From the NCBI GenBank assembly GCA_937942405.1, contig CALDEN010000379.1, positions 1 through 13,857 of the forward strand: a stretch of 13,857 bases of DNA, written 5' to 3'. The stretch's first letter is position 1, and every line of letters starts with the position of its first letter. Below the pieces are notes generated by a model that had not been told where the DNA came from, did not search any database, and saw only the letters and a program-made list of their open reading frames with translations. A program made the translations under genes and the position numbers. Shown here piece by piece: positions 7,485-13,857 of the stretch. This DNA is from an uncultured Saprospiraceae bacterium (lineage in GTDB: Bacteria; Bacteroidota; Bacteroidia; Chitinophagales; Saprospiraceae).

Positions 7485-9164
7485 ATGCATAAAAGTCTAC
7501 TGCTCACTGTATTTTCTTTACTTCACATCTTCACAATTAGCCTATCCCTCGCTGCTCAGGACACTTGTGCAACCGCTGCAGAGTTAGATGTCAGCAGCTC
7601 ATGTCAAGTACAGGTATTCAACAATACAGATTACACTGCATCCGACGAATCCCCCTACCCGACTTGTGGTTCCCTAGGTACTTTAATGGATGGATGGTTT
7701 ACGGTAACTGTTCCGGACAATGGATCTCTCATAGTAGAAACAACACAAGTCATAAATGGACTCAGCGACATGGTTATCCAAGCATATACCGGCTCATGTG
7801 GAAACTTGATACCATTGGCCTGTGATGATGATGGAGGAGAACTGGGACATTCATTATTGTCTTTCATTAATTTAACTCCCAGTACGACGATATATCTCAG
7901 AGTATTTGAATACAGCTCCGACGCTGTGGGCGATTTTGGACTCTGCTCATACGCAATCGAAACTCAAGCACCTGGAAATTTTTGCTCCAGTGCCCTTGCG
8001 TTGCCCCTTGCAGATACGTGTATGGTGATCGCAATAGATCATACAAATGCAACTGCATCAGAACATGGATTTAACAGTTGCATCTCAGATAGCTACACTG
8101 ACTCTTGGTTATCTGTAGAAGTTCCAGAAAGTGGTGCTTTACTCATAGAGACAAAAACAATTCCCGGAGGGCTGACAGACATGATCATGCAGATATTTTC
8201 TGGAGACTGTGATAATCTGCTCACTGTAGATTGTGATGACGATGGAGGACCTGGTTTTCAGAGTCAACTATTTATTTCCGACAGGACGCCAGGAGAGATA
8301 CTCTATATTCAGCTTTCTGAGATTAGTGGAGCTACGGGCATTTTCGGGATATGTGCAATAGCCGTAGAGTCATCTACAGGAGATCGTTGTGCGGATGCCG
8401 CATACCTCTCTCCTCTACCTACTTGCACACCTCAATTTTTCACAAACTTGGGTCAGACCAATTCCAACAATGGAACGGATCTTATATGTGGCATCGAAGG
8501 CGTAGGTATCGACAACTGGTTTTCTACAACAATACCCTCCAGCGGTAATCTGGTGATTGAAACCGTAAGTATATCCGGCAGTTCGAATACAGACCACATC
8601 ATGCAAGTATATGCTGGTACGTGTGGAGAGCTAATAGTAATCGACTGTAACGATGATGGCCCCACTGGCACAACTTCTTACGTCGAACTATCTAATCGTA
8701 TTCCCGGAGAGCTCATCTACTTTGAAGTAGTCGAATTTGGCAGCAATCAATATGGCCAATTCGGTGTATGTTCGTACGATCCATCTGCTACAGATGAAGA
8801 TGGAGATTTATGGTCGATCATAGATGATTGTGATGATACCGACCCTACCATAAATCCAGATGCTGAAGACATACCTGATAATGGGATAGATGAAGATTGT
8901 GACGGATCCGATCTTGTCGCTACTCATGCAATCGCAAACACCAGCCTTAAGCTATTTCCTAATCCCACGAATGGGATATTGAATTTTGAATTTGAAGGCA
9001 ACTTCACTTTTGAGCTTTACAACATTTCTGGTAGAGCACTGCAATCAGGCACATTGAGCCATCATCTAGATATCAGCTCGTACCACAACGGTATCTATGT
9101 GCTCATTATTCAAGACCCCAGATCCAATGACCGCATTTTCGAACAGATCATTCTTAATAAATAA
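7485..9164 (+). CDS. T9SS-exported surface protein with three tandem beta domains and a MopE-like motif
   Basis: This 559-residue protein starts with a signal peptide (about residues 1-23, ending SLAAQ). Three homologous domains follow, at roughly 25-162, 166-292 and 298-432. Each opens with a Cys-containing C..A..L segment, continues with a W[FL][ST]xx(V/I)PxxGxLxIET strand and a MQxYxGxC turn, and then has a C(D/N)DDG acidic loop and an FGxCxxA ending. They resemble bacterial pre-peptidase C-terminal-type beta sandwiches, with paired cysteines likely to form disulfides. Residues 437-478 form a MopE-like motif (DEDGD, DDCDD, INPDAED, GIDEDCDGSD) that probably binds calcium or another metal. 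From about residue 487 a type A T9SS sorting domain runs to the end (LKLFPNPTNG, ELYNISGRAL, the late GIYVLII strand). The cargo would be exported by PorU/T9SS to the cell surface or released. The partner or substrate is unknown. Confidence 0.88.
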   Translation: MHKSLLLTVFSLLHIFTISLSLAAQDTCATAAELDVSSSCQVQVFNNTDYTASDESPYPTCGSLGTLMDGWFTVTVPDNGSLIVETTQVINGLSDMVIQAYTGSCGNLIPLACDDDGGELGHSLLSFINLTPSTTIYLRVFEYSSDAVGDFGLCSYAIETQAPGNFCSSALALPLADTCMVIAIDHTNATASEHGFNSCISDSYTDSWLSVEVPESGALLIETKTIPGGLTDMIMQIFSGDCDNLLTVDCDDDGGPGFQSQLFISDRTPGEILYIQLSEISGATGIFGICAIAVESSTGDRCADAAYLSPLPTCTPQFFTNLGQTNSNNGTDLICGIEGVGIDNWFSTTIPSSGNLVIETVSISGSSNTDHIMQVYAGTCGELIVIDCNDDGPTGTTSYVELSNRIPGELIYFEVVEFGSNQYGQFGVCSYDPSATDEDGDLWSIIDDCDDTDPTINPDAEDIPDNGIDEDCDGSDLVATHAIANTSLKLFPNPTNGILNFEFEGNFTFELYNISGRALQSGTLSHHLDISSYHNGIYVLIIQDPRSNDRIFEQIILNK

Positions 9165-10128: not shown

Positions 10129-10414
10129 TAATTATATCGTAGAATCCCCCCTTCCTTACATGAGCTTTAGAAAAGCTCTAATTTCCCCGAGCTTTTCAAG
10201 CTATTGCACTATTACGAGCATTATGTAGTGCGTAAAACAACCACCAGCTATTACCATTATTACACTTCAAGATAAGCTCCATAATTTGTAGAAATAATCA
10301 AAGGTTCTCTACTATACACCTAGCTTTACAGTAAAATCCAAAAATTTATTTTTACCTCAGGCAACCTTTATTGCCATATGCAGGTATATAAAAGTGTAAA
10401 GCATAAAAACTACA
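10129..10414 (+). other. Long gene-free region upstream of the sigma-factor operon
   Basis: No convincing gene is present. The stretch holds a 7-base-pair hairpin (GAGCTTT/AAAGCTC, 10162-10178, 3-base loop). An 11-base palindrome, TTTACAGTAAA, lies at 10325-10335. A short inverted repeat (GGCAA/TTGCC, 10360-10375) sits 40 bases before the sigma start. A clear TAnnTTTG promoter is not seen. A GCAACC at 10361-10366 followed by GGTATA about 17 bases later loosely recalls ECF-type promoters (AAC in the -35 box), which would allow autoregulation, but this is weak. The region probably holds the control sites of the operon. Confidence 0.35.
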
Positions 10415-10966
10415 TTGAACGAACTTTTACATATCATCAAAAAATCCATGCTCGGTGATGCTAGTGCACAGCGAGCCCTCTATGAGGAGTATCGGACGAG
10501 ATGGTATATGACGAGCTTGAGATATGGTAAAAACAAAATGGAAGCAGAGGACATTTTCCAAGAAGCTCTGATCAATATTTTTAATCGTTTAGAATCCTAT
10601 GACCATAATAAAGGGGCTTTTACGACCTGGTCGACTAGAGTGATTATCAATTCTGCAATGACATATTTAAAGAAAAATAGCTGGGCTAATTCTATGTCTG
10701 GACTAGAAAACTCCTATACTGTAGAGACAGAAGTCGTGGATATTTACGATCAGCTATCAGCCAAAGAACTCACCCTACTCGTACAGAAACTTCCACTGGG
10801 ATACCGCTTAGTTTTTAATATGTATGCAATAGAAGGATTTACACACAAGGAAATCGCCGATCAACTAGAGATCAGTGTCGGAACTTCTAAATCTCAACTC
10901 TTCAAGGCACGTAGAGAATTACAAAAAACATTAGAATCACAATTAACTTCATCGAGTCATGAGTAA
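10415..10966 (+). CDS. ECF-type RNA polymerase sigma factor (sigma-70 family)
   Basis: The 183-residue protein has both ECF regions. Sigma region 2 (about residues 10-88) shows AQRALYEEY, MTSLRYGKNKMEAEDIFQEALINIF and FTTWSTRVIINSAMTYLKK. Sigma region 4 (about residues 118-178) shows LPLGYRLVFNMYAIEGFTHKEIADQL followed by the recognition helix VGTSKSQLFKARRELQ. It directs RNA polymerase to a specific promoter set and is normally held inactive by a membrane anti-sigma factor. The start is TTG: an in-frame stop lies 12 bases upstream with no ATG between, and the ATG at 10448 would cut into the first helix of region 2. The stop codon overlaps the next gene by 8 bases, so the two are translationally coupled, as expected for a sigma/anti-sigma pair. 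Confidence 0.92.
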   Translation: MNELLHIIKKSMLGDASAQRALYEEYRTRWYMTSLRYGKNKMEAEDIFQEALINIFNRLESYDHNKGAFTTWSTRVIINSAMTYLKKNSWANSMSGLENSYTVETEVVDIYDQLSAKELTLLVQKLPLGYRLVFNMYAIEGFTHKEIADQLEISVGTSKSQLFKARRELQKTLESQLTSSSHE

Positions 10967-12482
10967 GATGGACGATTACTACAAAAAACAACTTTTAGAT
11001 CATCAGCCTGCTGATGACGGATGGAATATTCCATCTGACGATCTATGGAATAAGGCTCAGCCGCATTTCCCTAAGCCTAAGAAAAAAAGAAGATTTCTAT
11101 TTTTACTGTTCCCTATCGGAATATTCCTACTCATCATGGCAGGATACTACTTAGGCAAGTCTACACGTACTGATTCCATTGCGACAGAACCTTCCTATGC
11201 GACAAGCTCTAACACACTAAAAAACACGACGAATACAGAAAAGAACATTGTAGAAGTTAGCACTGAATCATCTAAAGACCTCAGTAGTCCACCTAATCAG
11301 TCATTCAGCAATCATACGACAAACAGCAATAAAACCCACTCCAGCACTACTCCTAATGGCATTAAGTCCACTAGCTCTTCTAAAGAAAAAACCGCTCACA
11401 TCATTGACCTAGAGTCCATCAACTCATCCCTAACGGATAATCAAGCAGTATATAAAGCATCTAATAGAACTATCAACAAAGACCTCAACAACACAAGCAA
11501 CTATACGACTACTCATCCTCCATTTTTAGAAAACAGACAAACGACATCTGTCGTAGGAGCATTGAATTATTTTAGCTCAAGCCAAAAGAAAAACACTAGA
11601 CTCACAAATGTCGACAAGCAGATAAAGCAGATACAAACGCTAGCTACTCTAAAGACCTTAACAACCAAACCATTGGACATACAAGACAGAGCTCTGGCAC
11701 AACAAGACCTAAGCATAAATATCGCAGATAATGAAAAACCAACTAGTCGACATCTGATACATGAAGTAGGAACGGGATCCATGCTACACCTACTCACCAT
11801 AGTAGGAGAAGTAGAAAATGACGCCAATGAAGAATGGCAAGACGAAAAAATAATCCTCAAGTCCTATAACAATGTAAATCTCAATCTCCATTACAATCGA
11901 TACCTAAGCAAAAAATGGAACCTATCTACTGGACTTTATTATCACTCGATGAATTTTGATCTAGATGGAACGATCTACGATATACTGAGTGAGTCTAACA
12001 TTGATGATTTTGTAAGCAGTAATCTCTCTGACCGTTTAAATGATGGACTCACAGAAAATAGACAATCTGACGACTTCATGATCGAGCTCCTAGATGGCGA
12101 AACGGTCAATGCAGGCGACACGCTTAAATTCGGTCTAGATATAAGTCTAAATCTAAAAACCATACAGTTGCCTATTCTTATCAATAGAGAATGGAGCTGG
12201 AAACGGATCTCCTTTTTTGTAGGAGCGGGGGCCTCTTTCGATATACAATCATGGAGACAACGTTCTGCAGATATCCAACTCTACCGAGATGACCGACTAA
12301 TCACTAAGCCCTATTCCGAAGGAGAGACAGGTCCCGAACGGAGATACACCTACGGCCTGATCGTGCAATCTGGATTAAACTACAAAATAACGGATAACTT
12401 AAAATTCGGCGTAAGCGGAAGAGTGGTATTCCCTGATCTCATCACGACAGGAATAGAAGCCCGCTTCCTTTACCGCCTCTAA
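10959..12482 (+). CDS. Putative dual membrane-spanning anti-sigma factor with outer-membrane beta-barrel (Dma-like)
   Basis: Four parts can be read in this 507-residue protein. Residues 1-45 are a short hydrophilic cytoplasmic segment with a P-x-D-D-L-W-N-K motif (Pro25 to Lys32), which resembles the short sigma-binding segments of Bacteroidota anti-sigma proteins. Residues 46-65 are one membrane helix preceded by KKKRR, which places the N-terminus in the cytoplasm. Residues 66 to about 295 are low complexity, rich in Ser, Thr and Asn, and probably disordered in the periplasm. From about residue 300 on, alternating strands (VNLNLHYNRYLS, WNLSTGLYYHSM, LNLKTIQLPILINREW, ISFFVGAGASFDI, YTYGLIVQSGLNYKI, GIEARFLYRL at the very end) are typical of small PorT-like outer-membrane barrels. 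The layout equals that of the Dma class described in Bacteroides thetaiotaomicron, which crosses both membranes and restrains an ECF sigma factor. An ordinary outer-membrane protein with an unusual leader is the alternative, but the helix lacks a signal cleavage site. An in-frame ATG at 10968 is a possible start. Confidence 0.72.
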   Translation: MSKMDDYYKKQLLDHQPADDGWNIPSDDLWNKAQPHFPKPKKKRRFLFLLFPIGIFLLIMAGYYLGKSTRTDSIATEPSYATSSNTLKNTTNTEKNIVEVSTESSKDLSSPPNQSFSNHTTNSNKTHSSTTPNGIKSTSSSKEKTAHIIDLESINSSLTDNQAVYKASNRTINKDLNNTSNYTTTHPPFLENRQTTSVVGALNYFSSSQKKNTRLTNVDKQIKQIQTLATLKTLTTKPLDIQDRALAQQDLSINIADNEKPTSRHLIHEVGTGSMLHLLTIVGEVENDANEEWQDEKIILKSYNNVNLNLHYNRYLSKKWNLSTGLYYHSMNFDLDGTIYDILSESNIDDFVSSNLSDRLNDGLTENRQSDDFMIELLDGETVNAGDTLKFGLDISLNLKTIQLPILINREWSWKRISFFVGAGASFDIQSWRQRSADIQLYRDDRLITKPYSEGETGPERRYTYGLIVQSGLNYKITDNLKFGVSGRVVFPDLITTGIEARFLYRL

Positions 12483-12542
12483 ACCTCCTATTCTAAAATA
12501 TAACGATTAACACTCGATGTCTATAAATGGACAGGCATCTCA

Positions 12543-13857
12543 ATGAAAAAATTTAAAAAAATGAACGCACTAAAAATCTTTTTATACAAAATACCTATAC
12601 TCAAAACTCAGCTTACAATAGTCGCTCTACTGCTCATCTGCGGAACAAGTCTATCTGCTCAGGAGCTACAGAAGCACACCCTCAGCGGCCACGTTAAAGA
12701 TCGAAGCTCTGGCGAAGAACTGATCGAAGCTACCGTATACGTAAAAGAGTTATCCACTGGAAACACCACAAATGTATATGGCTTTTATTCTTTGACCCTA
12801 CCTCAGGGATCGTATCAGATCGTATATGGTTACTTGGGCTTTGAGGACATGGTTGTCACAGTAGATCTGGATCAAGACATCAGACAGGACGTCGACCTCA
12901 GCATAGCTGGCAACATGATATCCGAAATCACCATCGTCGCTGAAGAAGAAGACATCAATGTCCAGTCTACCGAGATGAGTAAGGTAACGATCGATGTCGC
13001 TGCTGTACAGAAAATACCGGCTCTGTTCGGTGAGGTAGACATCATCAAGGCCATACAACTCCTTCCTGGCGTAAAAACCATCGGAGAAGGCAGCTCTGGA
13101 TTCTATGTACGTGGCGGTAATGCAGATCAGAATCTAGTACTCCTAGATGAAGCCCCGATCTACAATGCCTCTCACCTACTGGGCTTCTTCTCGTCCTTTA
13201 ACCCAGATGCGATTAAGGACATGCAGCTCTACAAAGGAGCCATGCCTGCTCGATACGGTGGACGACTCAGCTCAGTACTGGACATCCGTATGAAAGAAGG
13301 GAATTCCAAAAAATTTGGCGGATCAGCCGGAATCGGACTCATCATGTCGAGACTATCCTTAGAAGCTCCACTGAGTGAGAACGGAAGTTTTATCCTATCA
13401 GGAAGGAGATCATATATCGACCTGATGTCTAAGGCATACCTCACTCTCAAAGGGGAGGACAGCAAAGATCAGTTTTACTTTTACGATCTCAATGCCAAAG
13501 GAAATTATCGATTCAACGAAAACAATCGACTCTTTGTATCTGGATACTTCGGTAAAGATATCTGGAAACAAGATGAAGATGGCATCAACTTTTTCTGGGG
13601 CAACAAGACTGCTACCGTGAGATGGAATCATATATTTTCGCCAAAGCTATTTTCTAATATCACTGCCTATTACAGCAATTATAATTATGGGCTTAAAGTC
13701 AATGAAGAGCTCAGTTCCTTTGACTGGTCATCGACGCTCGAGGAGGTCAGTCTCAAAGCGGACTTTACGGCATTTATCTCACCGGAGTACAGCATAGACT
13801 TCGGCATACAGTCGATAAAGCATGACATCGCTCCTGGGACGATAAAAATACTCGACA
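12543..13857 (+). CDS. TonB-dependent receptor with CarboxypepD_reg domain, N-terminal 438 residues (runs off right edge)
   Basis: The frame is open from the ATG at 12543 to the window end. Residues 1-40 form a long basic leader and hydrophobic core (LTIVALLLICGTSLSA, then QE), probably a signal peptide; the ATG at 12561 is an alternative start. Residues 45-118 are a CarboxypepD_reg-like beta sandwich (LSGHVKDRSSGEELIEATVYV, GFYSLTLPQGSYQIVYGYLGF). About 148-253 is the TonB plug (IKAIQLLPGV, SSGFYVRGGNADQNLVLLDE, MQLYKGAMPARYGGRLSSVLDIRMKEG). The start of the 22-stranded barrel follows. Such receptors import siderophores, vitamins, glycans or peptides, driven by ExbBD/TonB. No TonB box is obvious and no SusD gene is in view, so the substrate is unknown. 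It lies 60 bases downstream of the anti-sigma gene with no visible terminator between, so it is probably part of the same transcript. Confidence 0.92.
   Translation, partial: MKKFKKMNALKIFLYKIPILKTQLTIVALLLICGTSLSAQELQKHTLSGHVKDRSSGEELIEATVYVKELSTGNTTNVYGFYSLTLPQGSYQIVYGYLGFEDMVVTVDLDQDIRQDVDLSIAGNMISEITIVAEEEDINVQSTEMSKVTIDVAAVQKIPALFGEVDIIKAIQLLPGVKTIGEGSSGFYVRGGNADQNLVLLDEAPIYNASHLLGFFSSFNPDAIKDMQLYKGAMPARYGGRLSSVLDIRMKEGNSKKFGGSAGIGLIMSRLSLEAPLSENGSFILSGRRSYIDLMSKAYLTLKGEDSKDQFYFYDLNAKGNYRFNENNRLFVSGYFGKDIWKQDEDGINFFWGNKTATVRWNHIFSPKLFSNITAYYSNYNYGLKVNEELSSFDWSSTLEEVSLKADFTAFISPEYSIDFGIQSIKHDIAPGTIKILD

Follow-up and report, generated by a model that had tools for sequence, protein, structure and literature searches.

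The 13,857-nucleotide window analyzed here is one entire contig (CALDEN010000379.1) from a 65%-complete assembly (GCA_937942405.1) of an uncultured Saprospiraceae bacterium, and its 3' end carries an extracytoplasmic function (ECF) sigma factor gene, a gene for a Dma-like anti-sigma protein predicted to end in an outer-membrane barrel, and a TonB-dependent receptor gene (Table 1). The original prediction for this DNA described a one-direction unit with an 8-base overlap and a 60-base gap, in agreement with the open reading frame (ORF) coordinates, and proposed that a Dma-type unit was coupled here, physically or genetically, to a specific receptor. The genetic part of this proposal is upheld by the relatives of the window, as the receptor follows in 18 of 21 informative loci of the same Dma subfamily versus 0 of 50 other sigma-Dma pairs. 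The arrangement is probably a Dma/Reo-type switch, the regulated cargo of which is the TonB receptor of its own operon together with a DUF4249 lipoprotein.

The conservation of the neighbourhood was assessed with a profile of the Dma subfamily, which was compared with 298 genomes of the same family, the best five candidates at most being scored in each genome. Twenty-three subfamily places were found at 162-671 bits, with the next match below at 66 bits. Two of these loci (L098 and L104) reach a contig edge soon after the Dma gene, leaving 21 that are informative, and in 18 of the latter, across 14 genus codes, the receptor is the next receptor-like or sizeable gene. The Dma-receptor gap measures 33-196 bases in 15 of the 18, and the sigma gene stands immediately 5' of Dma in all 21 loci in which that side is present (L014 and L107 being truncated there by the end of the contig). 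In the genome of L098, the receptor opens another contig (L108), which fits the arrangement and was left out of the count, while the 84%-complete genome of L104 contains no receptor above 805 bits. Found again in 18 of the 21 relatives that are informative, the gene neighbourhood is not a matter of chance, and the question of its conservation, raised together with the original prediction, is answered in the affirmative.

For comparison, 55 further loci were taken from the family; 54 of them have a sigma-Dma pair (L030 was dropped), and 4 of these lie at a contig edge. Judged with a receptor profile (E 0.01), which was the sole basis for opposite-strand and shorter next genes, none of the remaining 50 pairs has a receptor as its next gene (18/21 versus 0/50, Fisher p 4e-14, relatedness ignored). 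By Pfam, eight same-strand next genes of at least 600 residues comprise four fasciclin proteins, one cohesin/dockerin protein and others with type IX secretion system (T9SS) tails, and one 292-residue next gene encodes an RskA_C lipoprotein. Outside the family, the subfamily was found in 0 of 394 other class-sample genomes and 0 of 394 phylum-sample genomes (E<=1e-20; the two samples overlap, and the best three candidates per genome were scored). Among the best 80 named receptor loci, 12 have the receptor preceded by a sigma-Dma pair, all of them metagenome-assembled Saprospiraceae by title, and 1 has it preceded by a sigma-FecR pair; neither pair was seen in the remainder, some of which are cut by contig ends. 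As separate observations on the other pairs, fasciclin proteins with T9SS tails adjoin sigma-Dma in L022, L233, L237 and L265 (Pfam), and RskA_C-like lipoproteins of about 290 residues occur in L016, L019, L231, L234, L239, L241, L243, L246 and L263 (Pfam for L016, the rest by eye), that of L239 being the second gene after the pair; the cargo thus seems to track the Dma subfamily.

Table 1. Features of the sigma/Dma/receptor unit in the window.
Feature	Position	Strand	Basis and remarks
Promoter-like site of ECF sigma	10358..10390	+	CAGGCAACCTTT, 15 bases, TATA; relatives' consensus CAGGCAACC-N-TT-N15-CATA
ECF sigma factor	10415..10966	+	183 residues, TTG start; Pfam Sigma70_r2 8e-15, Sigma70_r4_2 2e-15
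Dma-like anti-sigma gene	10959..12482	+	507 residues; 8-base overlap with sigma gene
Residues 1-44, putative cytoplasmic sigma-binding segment (W22, P25, W30, A33, P38)	10959..11090	+	top conservation; predicted helices 3-13, 27-36
Residues 45-67, predicted inner-membrane helix	11091..11159	+	hydropathy, K/R before helix (26/26); AlphaFold2 helix
Residues 68-263, predicted disordered periplasmic tether	11160..11747	+	predicted local distance difference test score (pLDDT) <50 over nearly all of 70-263
Residues 264-507, predicted 8-strand outer-membrane barrel	11748..12482	+	AlphaFold2; Foldseek OmpA domain; precomputed PF13568 on P0001
Dma-receptor gap	12483..12542	+	60 bases; no promoter-like site, no terminator-like site on + strand
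TonB-dependent receptor	12543..13857	+	open at contig end; 438 of ~790 residues; Pfam
CarbopepD_reg_2 of receptor	12681-12920	+	Pfam
Plug of receptor	12987-13265	+	Pfam

A second regularity of these loci is a promoter-like site before the sigma gene. The dyad GCAAC-N20-ATA is found within 250 bases 5' of sigma in 20 of the 21 loci (best shuffled dyads, 5-7), and the fuller motif, CAGGCAACCTTT followed by 15 bases and CATA, scores at least 14 of 16 in 20 of 21, always with a spacing of 15, by a score and threshold that were chosen after the site had been noticed. The 150 bases before the receptor contain it in 0 of 18 loci (no candidate at all in 17, and a score of 11 in L091), and a whole-locus pattern scan found no such site in the gaps, longer ones included. 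Because the site precedes sigma (20/21) and is absent from the gap (0/18), the receptor looks like an output of the operon and is expected to be transcribed from the sigma site. On the + strand of the window between 10050 and 12700 there is no terminator-like site, the Dma-receptor gap has no notable fold (z -1.05), and a general sigma-70 scan remained at chance level (8 hits versus 7.2 expected).

A strict form of the pattern has 31 matches in 17 whole genomes against 3 for a reversed control, and a single match, at the sigma site, in the 65%-complete genome from which the window comes. Thirty of the matches were inspected. Fifteen, spread over 15 of the 17 genomes, stand in front of a subfamily sigma gene (two belong to members with other cargo, and in G022 the sigma gene, cut on another contig end, was taken as the partner). 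A further 2 precede other sigma-Dma pairs, 6 are in intergenic positions before other genes and 7 fall inside ORFs, the last probably by chance. Several of the 6 intergenic matches precede genes for secreted proteins or lipoproteins, as judged by eye. Taken from this distribution, the candidate promoter is a mark of the family's Dma-linked sigma class, mainly of their own operons. In two loci of one genus (L283 and L292), the strict site stands 45-46 bases before a lipoprotein gene with no sigma gene adjoining, and this gene is a possible second target.

The sigma factor itself matches the general ECF model TIGR02937 above its cut-off, with the other NCBIfam models below theirs (among the best 25 of 114), and no ECF21 model is among the Pfam and NCBIfam matches listed for it (for NCBIfam, again the best 25 of 114). 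In the sigma tree, the subfamily clade has a support of 98/98. As a side observation, the sigma gene begins with TTG or GTG, and not ATG, in 20 of 21 subfamily loci when the first start is called (window 10415, L013, L089-L106), and in 13 of the 15 motif matches that precede subfamily sigma genes this start lies 22-29 bases 3' of the ATA of the site; the subfamily sigma genes combine a very short leader with a weak start codon.

The anti-sigma protein matched no Pfam family, and hence has no FecR domain; a protein search with it returned at least eight homologues, itself included. All 26 aligned members share one layout, with a conserved N-terminus, a single hydrophobic helix, a polar linker and a barrel. 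In each of the 26, the top 19-residue hydrophobic window begins at residue 35-51 and 3-7 of the ten residues before it are lysine or arginine, and pairwise identity is 0.50 over the N-terminal 44 residues, 0.12 in the linker and 0.26 in the barrel. An AlphaFold2 model of the window protein has helices at 3-13 and 27-36 (pLDDT 57-81), the membrane helix at 45-67, disorder from 70 to 263 and eight main strands within 268-506, with the barrel blocks mostly at pLDDT 87-98, except for a loop at about 350-380. By Foldseek, the barrel matches the OmpA membrane domain (1qjp, template modelling score by target 0.73), while the top rows by E-value are FapF, with a poor superposition that is probably due to the disordered tether. 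The predicted anatomy of a cytoplasmic end, one helix, a long linker and a barrel has therefore been confirmed by alignment, structure model and fold search alike. A cleaved signal peptide, which would have undone this anatomy, is unlikely because the helix sits behind the conserved 44-residue segment. By its modelled layout, the window pair is a member of the Dma/Reo-type sigma/anti-sigma systems, and by analogy with these, residues 1-44 would bind the ECF sigma factor.

The receptor contains CarbopepD_reg_2 and Plug by Pfam, and no STN domain, since the signal peptide leads directly into CarbopepD_reg_2 (Pfam for the window; relatives likewise). The window contig ends within this gene, and the DUF4249 partner is known from relatives alone. 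Full-length orthologues are present in L013, L014, L015 and others, and a DUF4249 gene lies 3' of the receptor in all 15 subfamily loci in which the contig continues (Pfam on three), giving the order of plug receptor and then DUF4249. The DUF4249 protein looks like a lipoprotein, as all 15 aligned rows have an invariant cysteine at the end of a signal-like sequence (the rows being those of 13 of the 15 loci, of L108 and of Reichenbachiella; lipobox judged by eye). In FecA-type systems, an extra N-terminal signalling domain sets signalling receptors apart from plain ones (PMC11637429). The receptor/lipoprotein pair is most likely cargo. A role of the receptor as a FecA-type transducer was also considered and was rejected because STN and FecR are missing.

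Three of the 21 informative members (L089, L095 and L097) have no receptor next to them. L095 and L097 instead carry two serine-beta-lactamase-family proteins and a protein of 205-209 residues, and L089 carries alpha/beta hydrolases and an unrelated 203-residue protein. In the sigma tree, all three fall inside the subfamily clade, in two separate positions, of which the inner one of L089 has weak support. Their genomes (96-99% complete) contain no receptor scoring more than 975 bits, where linked full-length receptors of named records, several of them part of the profile itself, reach 1259-1464 bits. Because these three members with other cargo lack the orthologous receptor, the sigma-Dma pair can exist without it.

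The switch proposed here would work as follows. In the off state, which draws on the anatomy and the Dma/Reo literature, residues 1-44 of Dma would hold the ECF sigma factor at the inner membrane while the C-terminal barrel resides in the outer membrane. A change felt at the barrel, whether a ligand or the state of the outer membrane, would free the sigma factor. The freed sigma factor would then read the CAGGCAACC-N-TT-N15-CATA site before its own gene, raising sigma, Dma, receptor and lipoprotein together. The operon layout and the conserved site are observed, and it is inferred from them that the receptor is transcribed from this site. The receptor would be an output and not an obligatory sensor, and the same receptor module could alternatively be controlled by an ECF sigma factor and FecR, in which case the receptor would bear an STN-like signalling domain.

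Several observations weigh against this reading. The Dma-receptor gap is 347-348 bases in L014 and L015, with ORFs of 82 and 94 residues, and 651 bases in L103, with an extra 193-residue ORF, and separate receptor promoters are possible in these three loci. The sister receptors of L110-L112, from the same family, and most of the best 80 named loci have no sigma-Dma pair in front, which means that the transporter does not need one. The cytoplasmic helices of the anti-sigma protein are modelled at moderate confidence only. The promoter-like site is missed in L096, where a score-13 site stands before an extra upstream ORF, and it is shared with other sigma-Dma loci, 27 of 54 of which score at least 14, versus 4 of 1080 single-base shuffles (L030 included and L245, with a cut sigma ORF, excluded from the 54), making cross-talk among the pairs via the common site possible. 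An output can, moreover, also be a co-sensor, as FecA is. The extra ORF of L096 (L096:3917-4471, 184 residues, unknown kind) separates sigma from the promoter-like site, an arrangement that resembles an insertion into the operon.

Of the other explanations, the one that survives best is that Dma signals general stress at the outer membrane, the role suggested for Reo, with the receptor and lipoprotein as protective or replacement cargo independent of any ligand. This is a serious minority possibility, in keeping with the induction of EcfO-Reo, which has the same layout, by antibacterial toxins and a BamA-binding peptide (PMC9308784, PMC13114119), and with the varied cargo of the other pairs (fasciclin, T9SS-tailed proteins and RskA_C lipoprotein); against it, the retention of a dedicated transporter pair across 14 genus codes is more suggestive of specific uptake. 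General stress sensing is a refinement of the cargo-switch explanation and does not contradict it.

It is doubtful that the receptor is also an input, with the Dma barrel or tether touching it and reading its loading as the STN-FecR contact does in Fec. That one Dma subfamily stays linked to a single receptor subfamily would suit such a contact, and the FecR-linked orthologue described below has an STN-like domain that the Dma-linked ones lack, as if the barrel had replaced STN. Against it stand the three members that retain sigma-Dma without the receptor and the absence of a receptor next to all 50 other pairs. The suggestion in the original prediction that the receptor supplies an input is not sustained, given the position of the promoter-like site before sigma and not in the gap, the receptor-less members and the missing STN. 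Slightly more speculative is the direct form of this idea, that the Dma barrel reads the loading of the receptor/DUF4249 pair, pulls the tether and frees sigma, and is interchangeable with STN/FecR. If true, this would be a second, barrel-based form of cell-surface signalling, and Reichenbachiella a natural replacement of one conduit by the other. A last explanation treats the receptor as an unrelated gene that lies downstream under a promoter of its own, in an order devoid of regulatory meaning; it would suit the long gaps of L014, L015 and L103 and is highly improbable against the 18/21 versus 0/50 contrast, the 15 of 18 gaps of 33-196 bases and the lack of a sigma-type site in the gaps.

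A different control of the same transporter is found in Reichenbachiella agariperforans, where the orthologous receptor (58% identity) and a DUF4249 gene lie behind an ECF sigma factor and FecR (PF04773, PF16344). This receptor has about 95 extra N-terminal residues with a weak STN match (PF07660 E 0.0023, below the gathering score) and a second match to FecR_C, of similar fold (0.0058). In its structure model, this region forms a small alpha/beta domain (pLDDT 71 on average) that resembles the signalling domains of PupA, PupB, FpvA and FecA at a probability of 0.90-1.00, with no match under 1e-3 and the best E of the search, 3e-3, to a secretin N0 domain; a PDB sequence search with the receptor N-terminus found nothing. 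Three of eight genomes of the genus have the receptor, all with FecR next to it and with the STN-like domain, as detected by a profile built from the first genome (L122 shows the domain). A subfamily Dma match in these three genomes was not returned (an empty answer, with no positive control). Among 291 genomes from that order, the query genome is the only one with a receptor above 1100 bits.

In a 47-row receptor tree, the Reichenbachiella row falls inside the Dma-linked clade (100/99), and an approximately unbiased test, run after the nesting had been seen, rejects a tree with the Dma-linked rows alone as a clade (p 0.0006). A quick 45-row tree with all three Reichenbachiella rows, which leaves out the longest branch and three partial rows, gives the same nesting (Shimodaira-Hasegawa-like approximate likelihood ratio test, SH-aLRT, 99). 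More distant receptors with FecR next to them and longer N-termini were found in L195 and L206, the STN profile finding L195 alone, and weakly. The best reading is that the Dma and FecR/STN controls are exchangeable on one transporter.

Compared with known systems, the window unit is closest in layout to Dma1 and Dma2 of Bacteroides thetaiotaomicron, which share the N-terminal anti-sigma segment, helix, disordered tether, barrel and adjoining sigma gene. In a parallel that favours the reading of the receptor as output, deletion of dma2 raises bt_1556, bt_1557 and das2 by log2 4.5-6.0 and bt_1555 by 2.5, placing das2 and the genes neighbouring dma2 among the most induced; the neighbours named in the accessible text are DUF4943, DUF4858 and an enoyl-reductase-like protein, unlike the present unit with its TonB receptor (PMC13088901). 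EcfO-Reo of Bacteroides fragilis and Phocaeicola vulgatus likewise has an anti-sigma protein that spans both membranes and has a terminal barrel, and few genes change in the anti-sigma mutant. Reo was proposed to be an outer-membrane stress sensor, and the regulon differs in that it includes NigD lipoproteins and a lipopolysaccharide glycosyltransferase gene, receptor cargo being unmentioned in the portions available (PMC9308784, PMC13114119). The order of a receptor followed directly by DUF4249 is that of the BT2172-BT2173 TonB transporter/DUF4249 pair (PMC11003636). With FecI-FecR-FecA, the unit shares an ECF sigma factor, trans-envelope control and a TonB receptor in the operon, and the Reichenbachiella orthologue is so arranged; it differs in having no FecR domain, no receptor STN and an anti-sigma protein that ends in a barrel. 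Judged by its domain composition, the unit is not a FecIRA system, as the two defining features tested are both absent.

The literature searched, which excludes most subscription papers, yielded no paper that connects Dma-type anti-sigma proteins with TonB receptor operons and none that names the promoter-like site. As far as that literature shows, the fixed receptor cargo, the promoter-like site of the family's sigma class and the exchange of Dma for FecR/STN are new. The unit could help to show what Dma/Reo proteins sense, since its specific, invariable cargo and its conserved site would let one reporter read both signal and response. Reichenbachiella, with an orthologous transporter under sigma-FecR and an STN-like domain, offers a like-for-like comparison of two trans-envelope designs.

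Elsewhere in the window, two further proteins were recognized by Pfam. One (809-2575) has repeats of both the two-component-regulator propeller and the SprB type, together with an OmpA domain at its C-terminus. The other (7485-9164) is secreted and carries galactose-binding-like and PPC domains, along with a metal-binding motif of the MopE type and a sorting tail for the T9SS.

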